The notes under the pieces: generated by a model | What the model was told of the DNA's origin: nothing | Database searches by the model: none | Seen by the model: only the letters and a program-made list of their open reading frames with translations | Made by a program: the position numbers and the translations under genes | Virus record (IMG/VR): IMGVR_UViG_3300021961_000555 | Coordinates: 1-26,053 of that record | Strand: one strand, 5' to 3' | Length of the DNA stretch: 26,053 nucleotides | DNA from: a virus | Shown: positions 5,112-15,945 of the stretch, one piece after another | How positions within the stretch are numbered: position 1 is the first letter of the stretch | Layout of the letters: each line of letters begins with the position of its first letter

Positions 5112-5119
5112 TATTTATA
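5112..5119 (-). promoter_or_regulatory. T4-type late promoter (TATAAATA) for gp48
   Basis: An exact match to the T4 late consensus on the minus strand, ending 8 bases before the gp48 ATG. The expected start of transcription would fall within a few bases of the start codon. It implies use of a gp55/gp33-type late sigma system, consistent with gp33 in this window. Confidence 0.6.
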
Positions 5120-12332: not shown

Positions 12333-12361
12333 ATTATATCATATTAGTGTCAACTTGTCAA
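12333..12361 (-). promoter_or_regulatory. Consensus sigma70 promoter for the gp32 unit
   Basis: TTGACA (12356-12361), 17 bases, TATAAT (12333-12338). It overlaps the last codons of the upstream paralogue gene, so the promoter is embedded in a coding end. Confidence 0.85.
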
Positions 12362-13229
12362 GCAGCTGTGCTTGAGAGATATACTCTAATCGTCCTTCGT
12401 CTTTCCACTTACGCCATTCGTAAACTTCTTCACTCGTATTAGTTGCGCCGTTTGTGTCTTTATTTACTTTGAAAAACTTAACATTTGGGTTCCAATCTAT
12501 AAGTGTATACCATTGATTGACCCAATTGACGTGTGGTGTTGCGGATGCCTCTTTTGCTTGATAATGTTTTGTACTTTTGTATATGTTATTAATTAAGTGT
12601 GTATCTGATTTTAAATCGTGTCCTATAAGATAAAGTTCTTGTGGTTGTTCTTTATGTATGGCAATAAACCCACTTGTTGCACCGCAAGCCCAACCGTGAT
12701 CTTTATGATTGCTCCATTCATCTTTTAAATCAAACGACATATCATTCTCTTTGATCCAAGAAATATAAATGTTTGATCTGTTAACTTCTTTTTGTATAAT
12801 TTCTTTTGGTGCGTGTTTATGTGTTTTCTGTTTTTGTCTGATAATAGACACCATACCTTTTAATGAGGTGCCGTGTATGACATACTCTTTGGCCTTGTCT
12901 TTATCTTCTTTATTCTCTTTGATTACATCATAATCACTTAACAACTGTAACTCCTGAGCGTCCACAAATCCTTCTACAACTTGTTGATAGGTTTCTATTG
13001 GCAACTTTGACCAGTTTCTAAAGTAACAAGGTTTCTTGGTTGCATAACCACTATGATAGATTTCGTGTATGATACCATTGTCCACAGCAGTAAGTACGTC
13101 AATCAGTTCAGGATAATCTCTATATATGGCATTACAACCATATATCTTACCGTGACCTTTTAACATTTGAAGTGGAAAGTCTTTACGACTTTCTCCATTA
13201 CCTATGCAAAAAACTTTCGTAGGTTTCAT
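12339..13229 (-). CDS. DUF115/MptE-like Rossmann protein, paralogue 2
   Basis: A 296-residue protein starting KVFCIGNGESRKDF, then KIYGCNAIYRD, then ATSGFIAIHKEQPQELYLIGHDL, SATPHVNWVNQWYTLI. The glycine-rich GNGESR loop followed by a GCNA/IYR strand, and a later GHDL, are the pattern of DUF115/MptE-like and some glycosyltransferase-type nucleotide-binding proteins. The upstream gene has the same motifs in the same order, so the two are paralogues. The 32-base overlap with that gene is unusual. Function is unknown; sugar or nucleotide transfer is possible from family resemblance only. Confidence 0.6.
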   Translation of the reverse strand: MKPTKVFCIGNGESRKDFPLQMLKGHGKIYGCNAIYRDYPELIDVLTAVDNGIIHEIYHSGYATKKPCYFRNWSKLPIETYQQVVEGFVDAQELQLLSDYDVIKENKEDKDKAKEYVIHGTSLKGMVSIIRQKQKTHKHAPKEIIQKEVNRSNIYISWIKENDMSFDLKDEWSNHKDHGWACGATSGFIAIHKEQPQELYLIGHDLKSDTHLINNIYKSTKHYQAKEASATPHVNWVNQWYTLIDWNPNVKFFKVNKDTNGATNTSEEVYEWRKWKDEGRLEYISQAQLLDKLTLI

Positions 13230-14043
13230 AAACGATATTTTTTATTTCTTTCCATTGTGAAATAACTTCTTTTGTTTTGTTTACTTGTATAAATGTAGTT
13301 TTTGGAAACATTTTAAATAATTGTTTCCATCCGTTACGCCACTTTAATCCTTTTGTAGCAACATCATCACCTTTTGCATAATGTTTTGTATCTTTATATA
13401 GATTGTTTGTAAAGTTTGTAGGACTTCCTAAATCGTGGCCTAACATATAACATTCTTTAGGACTGTTTTGTATCAATGCAATATAACCTGAAGTAGGACC
13501 TGCTGACATACCTAAATCTTTTCTATTAGGCATAATCTCTATAATATCTTTTGCCTTATCGTTATGTAACCAACTAATATGTAAACCAAACTTATTCATT
13601 TCTAAATCAAATTGTGGTGCGTGTAAAGCATTCTTGTCTTTATATCTTTTTATAATAAACAATTTAGATTGATAATTCGTACCACTTACTGTAAAATATA
13701 AACTGTCCTTTCTTTCGTTTTCAGTTCTGTGTGTATAATATTTTTCAACTTCTTTCTTTTCTTCTTCGGTTATTTTACCATAATATAATTCATCATATTC
13801 ATTTGCGTGTCTTTTTCTCCACCCTCTAAACCAACATTCATTATTATAGGCATAACCACTATCATATATTTCGTGTTTAATGCCAGGATCAACTGCAATT
13901 AAAACATCAGGTTTAAAGTTTCTATATAAAGCATTACAACCATATATCTTTCCTAATGGTTTTAATAGTTCAAGGTTAAAATGTTTACGACTTTCTCCAT
14001 TGCCTATGCAAAATACTTTTTCACTTGATGACTTCAACATCAC
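13198..14043 (-). CDS. DUF115/MptE-like Rossmann protein, paralogue 1
   Basis: A 281-residue protein with KVFCIGNGESRKHF (9-22), KIYGCNALYRNF, AGPTSGYIALIQNSPKECY, then MLGHDLGSPTNFTNNLYKDT, the same blocks as the neighbour downstream (GNGESR, YGCNA, TSG.IA, GHDL, NN.YK.TKHY). The two therefore arose by duplication and have since diverged widely. Its end overlaps the start of paralogue 2 by 32 bases and its start overlaps the upstream 78-residue gene. Role unknown: the nucleotide-binding-like loop suggests an enzyme acting on an activated sugar or nucleotide. Confidence 0.6.
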   Translation of the reverse strand: MMLKSSSEKVFCIGNGESRKHFNLELLKPLGKIYGCNALYRNFKPDVLIAVDPGIKHEIYDSGYAYNNECWFRGWRKRHANEYDELYYGKITEEEKKEVEKYYTHRTENERKDSLYFTVSGTNYQSKLFIIKRYKDKNALHAPQFDLEMNKFGLHISWLHNDKAKDIIEIMPNRKDLGMSAGPTSGYIALIQNSPKECYMLGHDLGSPTNFTNNLYKDTKHYAKGDDVATKGLKWRNGWKQLFKMFPKTTFIQVNKTKEVISQWKEIKNIVYETYESFLHR

Positions 14044-14525: not shown

Positions 14526-15133
14526 TATACAAATATCTCTTTCATAATAAATTTACATTTAGTTAAATTATAATTAACAAATGGACTTAACTTGGTAATC
14601 TTAAATGACTTTTCAGGCCATATAACTTTCTCGGTAATCTCTTTATCCCAATTTTTAATAAACGATAATATCTTATCCAAGATGATGATTGTTTGTACGG
14701 ATAGTTTTTTTGAGAGATGTAAGCGTAAAGCTCTTGGGTGTTGGCCGTCAGATACGAGAAACATATCATCAAAAGAAATCCTATTGTCATCAATGAAAGA
14801 ACGAACCAATAAGCACTCATTTCTAAAATTATAAGTAAATGCGTCTTTATATTTCTTCCAATTTGTATAAGTCGATTCTCCATCTGCACGTATTAAACTC
14901 CCAATCCAAGTTTTTGAATTTTCAAAAAAGTTGCATACAAAATAATCAATAAGTTCTTCTTTATTATATTTGGTTGCAAGTCTATAAAAAAAGTATCTAT
15001 CATTTCTCTTTATAAAAGTATTTATGGATGAATTAACTTTTGCATTGTGTTTGAAAAAATCATAGTTATCAGTTGTGAAGTGTAATTTAATGGCAAGATA
15101 TAATTTATATGCTTCATAACTGTTATTATTCAT
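14525..15133 (-). CDS. 59: Helicase loader gp59
   Basis: A 202-residue homologue of T4 gp59, which binds forks and loads the gp41 helicase onto gp32-covered DNA. Matching segments: YEAYKLYLAIKLHFTTDNYD (T4: YKLYLMIKQHMNGKYD), DRYFFYRLATKY (T4: DKYFFQKLSEKY) and KTWIGSLIRADGESTYTNWK in place of T4 DAWIGDISDADALVFYREY. T4 gp59 is 217 residues. The ATG overlaps the stop of gp33 as ATGA, the next gene overlaps its stop as TAATG. The order gp33-gp59 with gp32 nearby is the T4 cluster with other genes inserted. Confidence 0.88.
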   Translation of the reverse strand: MNNNSYEAYKLYLAIKLHFTTDNYDFFKHNAKVNSSINTFIKRNDRYFFYRLATKYNKEELIDYFVCNFFENSKTWIGSLIRADGESTYTNWKKYKDAFTYNFRNECLLVRSFIDDNRISFDDMFLVSDGQHPRALRLHLSKKLSVQTIIILDKILSFIKNWDKEITEKVIWPEKSFKITKLSPFVNYNLTKCKFIMKEIFV

Positions 15134-15354
15134 ATAGGTAAGACGCCAGAGCTAGACTTCTTAATAAGTCTTAAATTCTCGGCTTCAATTTGTATCTTTT
15201 CTTTTAATGATTTGTTGACCATAGGACCTATGGTTGCAGGATCAACTTCGTTTCTATCGCAAAAATATACTATGGCATCCATATAGGATATTTTCTTTGT
15301 TTTAACTATCTCCTCAATCGTTAAACCAAACTTTTTACTATTCATTAACATCAT
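15130..15354 (-). CDS. 33: Late transcription co-activator gp33
   Basis: A 74-residue homologue of T4 gp33, which ties the sliding clamp to RNA polymerase so late promoters can fire. The match is KKISYMDAIVYFCDRNEVDP, then NKSLKEKIQIEAENLRL (T4: GMSYLEATTAFLEENSI, then SGIIEKIQSEAIDENLL). T4 gp33 has about 112 residues; marine forms are shorter. The first ATG (15354) lies 5 bases after the TATAAT of the promoter at 15360-15388 and there is no Shine-Dalgarno, so the message may be leaderless. Two further ATGs in frame (15351, 15345) are possible. The gene lies just after the tmRNA. Confidence 0.85.
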   Translation of the reverse strand: MMLMNSKKFGLTIEEIVKTKKISYMDAIVYFCDRNEVDPATIGPMVNKSLKEKIQIEAENLRLIKKSSSGVLPI

Positions 15355-15359
15355 AATAT

Positions 15360-15388
15360 ATTATAACATACTTTATTGATTTTGTAAA
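15360..15388 (-). promoter_or_regulatory. Sigma70 promoter for gp33
   Basis: TTTACA (15383-15388), 17 bases, TATAAT (15360-15365). It begins right after the 3' hairpin of the tmRNA and would start transcription about at the gp33 ATG. Confidence 0.75.
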
Positions 15389-15390
15389 GC

Positions 15391-15610
15391 GCCTGTGTTC
15401 TGTTGCAAGGTCACAGGCAACCCCAGCAGACTAGGCTGCTAAAGCATAACTTTCGTTAGCATTTATTGTTTGATGTTAGGACATCAGCCATTTAACTCCA
15501 GTAAGTTTTAACTAGCAGTCGATCCTGATTCCACCCCTAAAATTTCATTGTTTTAATGGTGGAGTGGCAGGGAATTGCACCCTGGTCCTGTCTAGGTATT
15601 ATCTTACCTT
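15391..15610 (-). ncRNA. ssrA: Circularly permuted two-piece tmRNA (alpha-type)
   Basis: Reading leftward, the acceptor piece comes first: a T-arm (CAGGG TGCAATT CCCTG, 15584-15568), acceptor strand CCACTCC and an encoded ACCA (15560-15557). A 19-base spacer (15556-15538) follows, then the coding piece begins GGGGTGG (15537-15531). GGGGTGG pairs with CCACTCC, with a G3-U pair, the alanine identity signal. GGTAAG and CTAG.CAG in the acceptor piece pair with CTTACT and CTG.CTAG in the coding piece (helix P2). The tag frame ends in TAG; a hairpin AGCAG/CTGCT holds the stop, and GCCTGTG/CACAGGC (15418-15391) closes the 3' end. Mature pieces are expected after removal of the spacer, as in alphaproteobacterial tmRNA, which rescues stalled ribosomes. 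It follows the 109-residue gene by only a few bases and may share its transcript. Confidence 0.93.
15431..15460 (-). other. tmRNA proteolysis-tag frame: ANESYALAA
   Basis: From resume codon GCT (15460-15458) the frame reads A-N-E-S-Y-A-L-A-A and stops at TAG (15433-15431). With the charged alanine the tag is AANESYALAA, ending in the Ala-Leu-Ala-Ala that ClpXP-type proteases recognise. This closely resembles bacterial tags such as ANDENYALAA of E. coli, and it confirms the tmRNA identification. Confidence 0.9.
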
Positions 15611-15615
15611 CAACG

Positions 15616-15945
15616 TTAAATTCCTTTTTTCTTCTCTAATACTTTGCTTTTATTATAAGTGTGAAATAAAATACAACTATCTGTAGCACTAGGTATATCC
15701 ACAGTTACCAATACTTGATCTTTCGTTTCATAATAAGTTATCATATAAATTGGTTCACCATCTGGTGTACTCCCAACTCTACCTAAACTGATATGTACAG
15801 GTTCAAAACCTTTGTCATCAATATATCTTTTTATTTCATCTGGCGTGCCACATACTGCTGGTACTTGATTCCAATATAAATTGTATTGTTCAGCGTATGA
15901 TACGTTTGCCCATAATAAAGTTAAAATTACTATTAACTTCTTCAT
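15616..15945 (-). CDS. Secreted/periplasmic small protein
   Basis: A 109-residue protein with a textbook signal peptide (MKKLIVILTLLWANVSYA, cleavage before EQYNLY). The mature part has two cysteines and motifs AVCGTPDEIKRYIDDKGF, ISLGRVGSTPDGEPIYMITYY. It would work in the host periplasm. It resembles proteins seen in marine phages but no function is known to me. A good Shine-Dalgarno (AAGGG) precedes it. The tmRNA starts immediately after its stop, so a single transcript may carry both. A late-type AATAAATA lies at 16044-16051, upstream. Confidence 0.75.
   Translation of the reverse strand: MKKLIVILTLLWANVSYAEQYNLYWNQVPAVCGTPDEIKRYIDDKGFEPVHISLGRVGSTPDGEPIYMITYYETKDQVLVTVDIPSATDSCILFHTYNKSKVLEKKKGI

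Follow-up and report, generated by a model that had tools for sequence, protein, structure and literature searches.

Does a phage whose hosts already possess tmRNA make use of one of its own, or does it merely carry it? In Caulobacter and other alphaproteobacteria, a two-piece tmRNA is made when a precursor is cut in two; the base-paired pieces, charged with alanine, act with SmpB in freeing stalled ribosomes and tagging the growing polypeptide. Only a small number of tmRNAs from phages are known. The window considered here, by which we mean the whole stretch of DNA analyzed, is a 26,053-base virus record (IMG/VR record IMGVR_UViG_3300021961_000555) with T4-like gene content, encoding gp33, gp59, gp32 (single-strand DNA-binding), head closure, baseplate hub, and further tail and baseplate proteins. 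It belongs to a marine virus akin to phages that infect SAR11, bacteria that abound in the ocean. At 12339-14043 on its minus strand lie two neighboring, related ORFs, both starting ...KVFCIGNGESRK... and without a Pfam match; one of them matches phrog_30607 (function not assigned), and the pair looks like a tandem duplicate. Between ORF109 and gp33 lies a tmRNA gene, which we read, with a probability of about 0.78, as a functional tmRNA of the alphaproteobacterial type, circularly permuted and encoded by the phage, that would rescue ribosomes together with host SmpB.

The gene occupies about 15621-15388 on the minus strand, downstream of ORF109 (15616-15945, minus strand; 109 aa, function not assigned) and upstream of gp33, a late-promoter transcription coactivator (phrog_254; 15130-15354, minus strand) whose best cultured match is in the SAR11 phage Mosig. 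Searching the whole window with Rfam, we found that RF01849 (alpha_tmRNA) matches 15662-15388 with 86.8 bits (E 1.6e-22; gathering threshold 50 bits) and is the best family of its clan, and that RF04321 (tmRNA_permuted) matches 15619-15431 with 92.4 bits (E 6e-17; threshold 47 bits). ARAGORN independently reports a ‘Permuted’ tmRNA, with acceptor piece, spacer and coding piece in that order and with the tag ANESYALAA. An initial annotation had called a phage-encoded, circularly permuted tmRNA of alphaproteobacterial ancestry with this tag at 15391-15610. The type, the tag and, given the T4-like genes around it, the phage coding all hold. The gene is indeed at that place, yet its extent is slightly larger, as the 5' strand of helix P2 starts at 15621 and the alpha_tmRNA model reaches 15388; the minus strand had not been mentioned.

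Each part that the annotation named is present. The acceptor piece opens with the 5' strands of P2, ATTTAAC (15621-15615), GGTAAG (15608-15603) and TA.CTAG (15598-15592), which together span 15592-15621 and pair with the 3' strands CTAG.TA, CTTACT and GTTAAAT of the coding piece (15490-15515). It continues with the T-arm CAGGG-TGCAATT-CCCTG (15568-15584) and the acceptor stem 3' strand CCACTCC with an encoded ACCA (15557-15567). A 19-nt spacer, TTAAAACAATGAAATTTTA (15538-15556), presumably removed, separates it from the coding piece, whose first bases, GGGGTGG (15531-15537), form the acceptor stem 5' strand and pair 7/7 with CCACTCC, including G3-U70. Beyond P2 come pseudoknot PK1 (GG/CC with GATG/CATC; 15472-15489) and the tag frame GCT AAC GAA AGT TAT GCT TTA GCA GCC TAG (15431-15460), which has a resume consensus, a hydrophobic end and a stop (AATAAAT-GCT...ALAA-TAG). 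The stop-codon hairpin AGCAG/CTGCT (15425-15440) is followed by a 3' pseudoknot (15388-15423) in which GGGT pairs with ACCT in the loop of the hairpin GCCTGTG/CACAGGC; ACCUGGCAACAGAA in this region belongs to the alpha_tmRNA model. All of these features lie on the minus strand.

We aligned 16 phage tmRNAs and scored them on a structure of 52 pairs, two pseudoknots included, that was drawn from the window sequence. In this alignment 86.9% of cells pair and 27/52 pairs change on both sides; when partners were slid, only 35-51% paired and 3-8 pairs changed on both sides, and shuffles gave 74% and 16.4 +/- 1.7 pairs. Compensatory changes occur in the T-stem (100% paired in the 16 phages, 3/5 pairs compensatory), the acceptor stem (two pairs), P2, PK1, the stop-codon hairpin and the 3' pseudoknot. 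In P2, pairing amounts to 100% in helix 1 and 99% in helix 2, with 9/13 pairs changed on both sides, and in PK1 (helices 6 and 7) the count is 5/6. The stop-codon hairpin (helix 8) is paired in 97.5% of cells, with one pair appearing as A-U, U-A or G-C, and helix 9 of the 3' pseudoknot in 98.4%, with C-G, G-U and A-U variation. G3-U70 (16/16) and the encoded CCA are invariant. Two small helices of the outer 3' hairpin score low only because a base inserted in some of the sequences puts the alignment out of register by one, so that their own counts are not informative; by eye, every sequence has GCCTGT/ACAGGC or a compensated version of it (GATTGT/ACAATC in Mosig).

The encoded peptide, too, is conserved. 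ANESYALAA is the tag of 9/37 SAR11-order tmRNAs that we read and of none of 41 from other alphaproteobacteria. Compared with the SAR11 versions, the window tag differs at 4-6 of its 27 sense bases, and all of these differences are silent; in a simple simulation that gave every change equal weight, 4-6 random changes kept the peptide in about 0.1% of trials or less. In one relative (L003) the tag codons depart from those of the window by four silent changes, and the peptide is identical. As the changes are silent and some of them preserve the stop-codon hairpin (GCAG/CTGC versus GCGG/TCGC), both the peptide and the hairpin look selected. Such long-term selection on RNA structure and encoded peptide argues that the phages use the tmRNA and do not merely carry it.

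The phage RNAs differ from SAR11 tmRNAs in two features, the first being the T-loop. The initial annotation had flagged as unusual a G at the psi55 position of the T-loop. We instead find the same G in 62/62 alphaproteobacterial tmRNAs read in register, with GGCRGTA in 37/37 from SAR11 and GGCRGTA or GGCRGTG in the 25/25 others that were readable; it is thus a rule of the family, and we rejected the idea of a phage oddity. The window loop, TGCAATT, retains this G, yet shares U54 and A58 with ordinary tRNA; relative L021 has TTCAATT. The second feature is the spacer. In the window and most relatives it can fold into a small hairpin whose loop, CAATGAAA, is constant and whose stem varies (TAAAA/TTTTA, TTAAA/TTTAA, CTAAA/TTTAG), and in HTVC008M, Mosig and Melnitz it forms a long helix that prolongs the acceptor stem. 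SAR11 spacers measure 4-16 nt, and the three that we folded contain neither. The phage spacer structures may guide processing. A second, weak permuted tmRNA (72.8 bits) in one alphaproteobacterial genome (L270; G096:C5:288509-288849), with the tag ANDNSPVAMAA, has a phage-like T-loop, TGCAAGT, and is possibly a prophage tmRNA.

Where might the gene have come from? In a tree that included the tag columns, the phage RNAs, Melnitz apart, formed one clade (99/100) that joined SAR11 (93/100) through a branch 0.79 changes per site in length. When the tag columns were removed and more low-GC alphaproteobacteria added, the phage clade remained single (99/99) but stood alone, no longer joined to SAR11. 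Melnitz was rejected as a close relative of the window RNA, as it falls among ordinary alphaproteobacteria on a long branch. These data are consistent with a single old phage tmRNA lineage, which we consider likely. The tag suggests a SAR11 donor, as do the hosts on which the cultured relatives grow, but the RNA body is too diverged to confirm it.

That divergence could also be read differently. SAR11 tmRNAs score 209-244 bits against RF01849, compared with 87 for the window, and an RNA body so far from the host's might act as a competitor that sequesters SmpB, EF-Tu or alanyl-tRNA synthetase of the host and thereby dampens or redirects host trans-translation; indeed, a phage tmRNA that lacks a tag frame (DS6A) is reported to inhibit the cell's own tmRNA in E. 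coli (PMC11915505, which describes 79 unique bacteriophage tmRNAs). However, a pure competitor needs no tag, and this RNA has retained its tag frame, its resume site, the hairpin at the stop codon and the two pseudoknots, with only silent changes in the tag, which makes this reading improbable.

The distribution of the gene bears on whether it is a useless passenger, a host-derived ssrA hitchhiking beside gp33 and slowly decaying. We collected 80 IMG/VR relatives via gp59; many are near-copies, so the tmRNA counts are not a frequency. The tmRNA lies just upstream of gp33 in 57 of the 73 in which this could be decided, the 7 others being too short or unclear. Two of the relatives (L010 and L012, 2311-2743) have about 430 bases of extra DNA between the tmRNA and the gp33 promoter. 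In 16/73 the flanking genes are present and the tmRNA is absent at this place, as a passenger would predict, so the gene is probably dispensable. Rfam finds nothing in the gap between the flanking genes of these relatives, and we rejected a hidden, diverged tmRNA there, as different sequence, seemingly a small ORF, takes its place. At least one relative (L081) has only a 3'-hairpin remnant, and the T-arm is damaged in one clade (L013, L029, L037, L048, L057, L067 and copies), where GTGGC-TGCAAT-GCCAC has a 6-nt T-loop and is missed by ARAGORN; some copies may therefore be decaying. Against these losses stand the compensatory changes throughout the RNA and the conserved tag peptide, which amount to selection on function over long divergence and leave the passenger reading with little probability.

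Other relatives encode other tags: ANNLAMAA, ANNLAIAA, ANNNFAMAA, DNESYRMAA and DNHIDYRMAA. The ends seen among relatives, ALAA, AMAA, AIAA or RMAA, would suit phage tags that differ by design and steer host or phage proteins, while still nascent, to chosen proteases. We find this highly unlikely, as the window tag is identical to a host tag, and AMAA, AVAA, AIAA and RLAA ends are also found in ordinary alphaproteobacterial tags. A last rival, in which the similarity is due to chance or misfolding or stems from a decayed tRNA cluster, has no point in its favor and is already refuted by the Rfam and ARAGORN matches and the covariation, which place the similarity well beyond chance.

A broader proposal would have the phage RNAs form a separate phage-borne lineage of two-piece tmRNAs, inherited vertically beside gp33 in SAR11-type T4-like phages, with its own spacer hairpin and with tags that track the degradation rules of the current host, from ANESYALAA to AMAA, AIAA and RMAA endings, so that infection would run on phage-controlled rescue and tagging. 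We put this forward tentatively and regard it as rather unlikely.

How would the RNA be made? The ORF109 stop codon falls within the P2 5' strand, so a longer transcript is the probable source from which the tmRNA is cut. We found no clear promoter belonging to the tmRNA; the nearest strong one is downstream, before gp33. This promoter-like site, TTTACA-17-(TG)TATAAT with an extended -10 (15360-15388, minus strand; 11/12 matches), overlaps the tmRNA 3' end and faces gp33; it cannot drive the tmRNA itself. TTGACA and TATAAT are kept at this site in most relatives, and this near-consensus sigma70-like promoter allows at most a very short leader ahead of the first ATG. The T4-type late promoter TATAAATA does not occur near the tmRNA, its only copies in the window being at 5112 and 12196. 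For Melnitz, a glutamine riboswitch had been proposed to belong to the tmRNA and to control it. We rejected such a part here: Rfam has no match to it in the window, and in Mosig it lies 19 kb from ssrA (MT647606.1:92197-92250). The Melnitz copy comes after the 3' hairpin of the tmRNA and points toward gp33 (L250:1691-1739). In both phages it more likely regulates genes other than ssrA.

Taken with these observations, the functional reading that we prefer suggests the following course. A single precursor, presumably derived from the unit exonuclease - ORF109 - tmRNA - gp33 - gp59, would lose its spacer to host tRNA-processing enzymes, and the resulting acceptor and coding pieces would stay joined through P2 and the acceptor stem. 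The alanyl-tRNA synthetase of the host would charge the RNA via G3-U70, and it would then enter stalled ribosomes with the SmpB of the host; SmpB was not found in the phages searched (Mosig and HTVC008M), hence the presumed reliance on the host protein. A match to SmpB is present in 7/9 SAR11 genomes searched, the two without one being 0.7-1.0 Mb assemblies. The RNA would append (A)ANESYALAA, which some SAR11 bacteria also use, so host proteases should clear the tagged products. The likely gain is that ribosomes would be kept free when infection yields truncated mRNAs. We therefore regard action as a tmRNA with host SmpB during infection as most likely. Against it we count, besides the promoter that faces gp33 and the losses and T-arm damage among relatives, that hosts already possess tmRNA (40/40 SAR11 genomes have their own, permuted), so that a second copy meets no evident need.

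Two-piece tmRNAs of this phage group were already published in 2022 (PMC9004378), and that of Mosig is annotated in GenBank. PMC9004378 reported a two-piece tmRNA in Melnitz and in 17/47 related contigs, 53 unique phage structures, and tmRNA in 402/18,146 phage genomes, and proposed roles resembling those in the initial annotation (outcompeting the host system, late recycling of ribosomes, degradation of host proteins). We found no reported functional test of a two-piece phage tmRNA in the literature. The present analysis adds evidence that both structure and peptide have been under selection throughout the phage clade, a tag identical to one of SAR11, a spacer hairpin that covaries, an unannotated tmRNA gene in HTVC008M, and the correction concerning the T-loop. 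A cultured SAR11 strain served to isolate both Mosig and HTVC008M, which makes it possible to test directly what a phage tmRNA does beside that of the host.

Among known systems, chromosomal SAR11 ssrA shares with the window the permuted form, the G at T-loop position 55 and, in some members, the tag, and differs in RNA body, T-loop and spacer as described above. Melnitz (MZ577097.1; PMC9004378), a phage of OM43 (Methylophilales), likewise has a two-piece tmRNA upstream of gp33 and gp59, but with a host-like T-loop, GGCAGTA, the tag ANDNYVPVDYALAA, a 142-nt spacer and the riboswitch downstream. This spacer (L250:1370-1511) holds an ATG and an apparent open frame that enters the coding piece, possibly a small ORF inside the tmRNA gene. 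In Pelagibacter phage HTVC008M (KC465899.1) the permuted tmRNA follows the exonuclease gene and lies close to gp33, at L002:1651-1962 (about 145103-145414 of the genome); an annotated ORF (locus 1439-1729) covers the acceptor piece almost to the T-arm. It is 84% identical to the window over the tag and 3' hairpin, and differs in its tag (ANFNEYALAA), its 49-nt spacer and the two ORFs that separate it from gp33. In Pelagibacter phage Mosig EXVC030M (MT647606.1), the annotated permuted SsrA (67.6 bits in RF01849, 93.6 bits in RF04321) lies between a homologue of ORF109 and gp33, in a surrounding gene order shared with the window; it differs in its tag, GEDNFALAA, in a 44-nt spacer with a long hairpin, and in a thymidylate synthase gene that separates gp33 and gp59.
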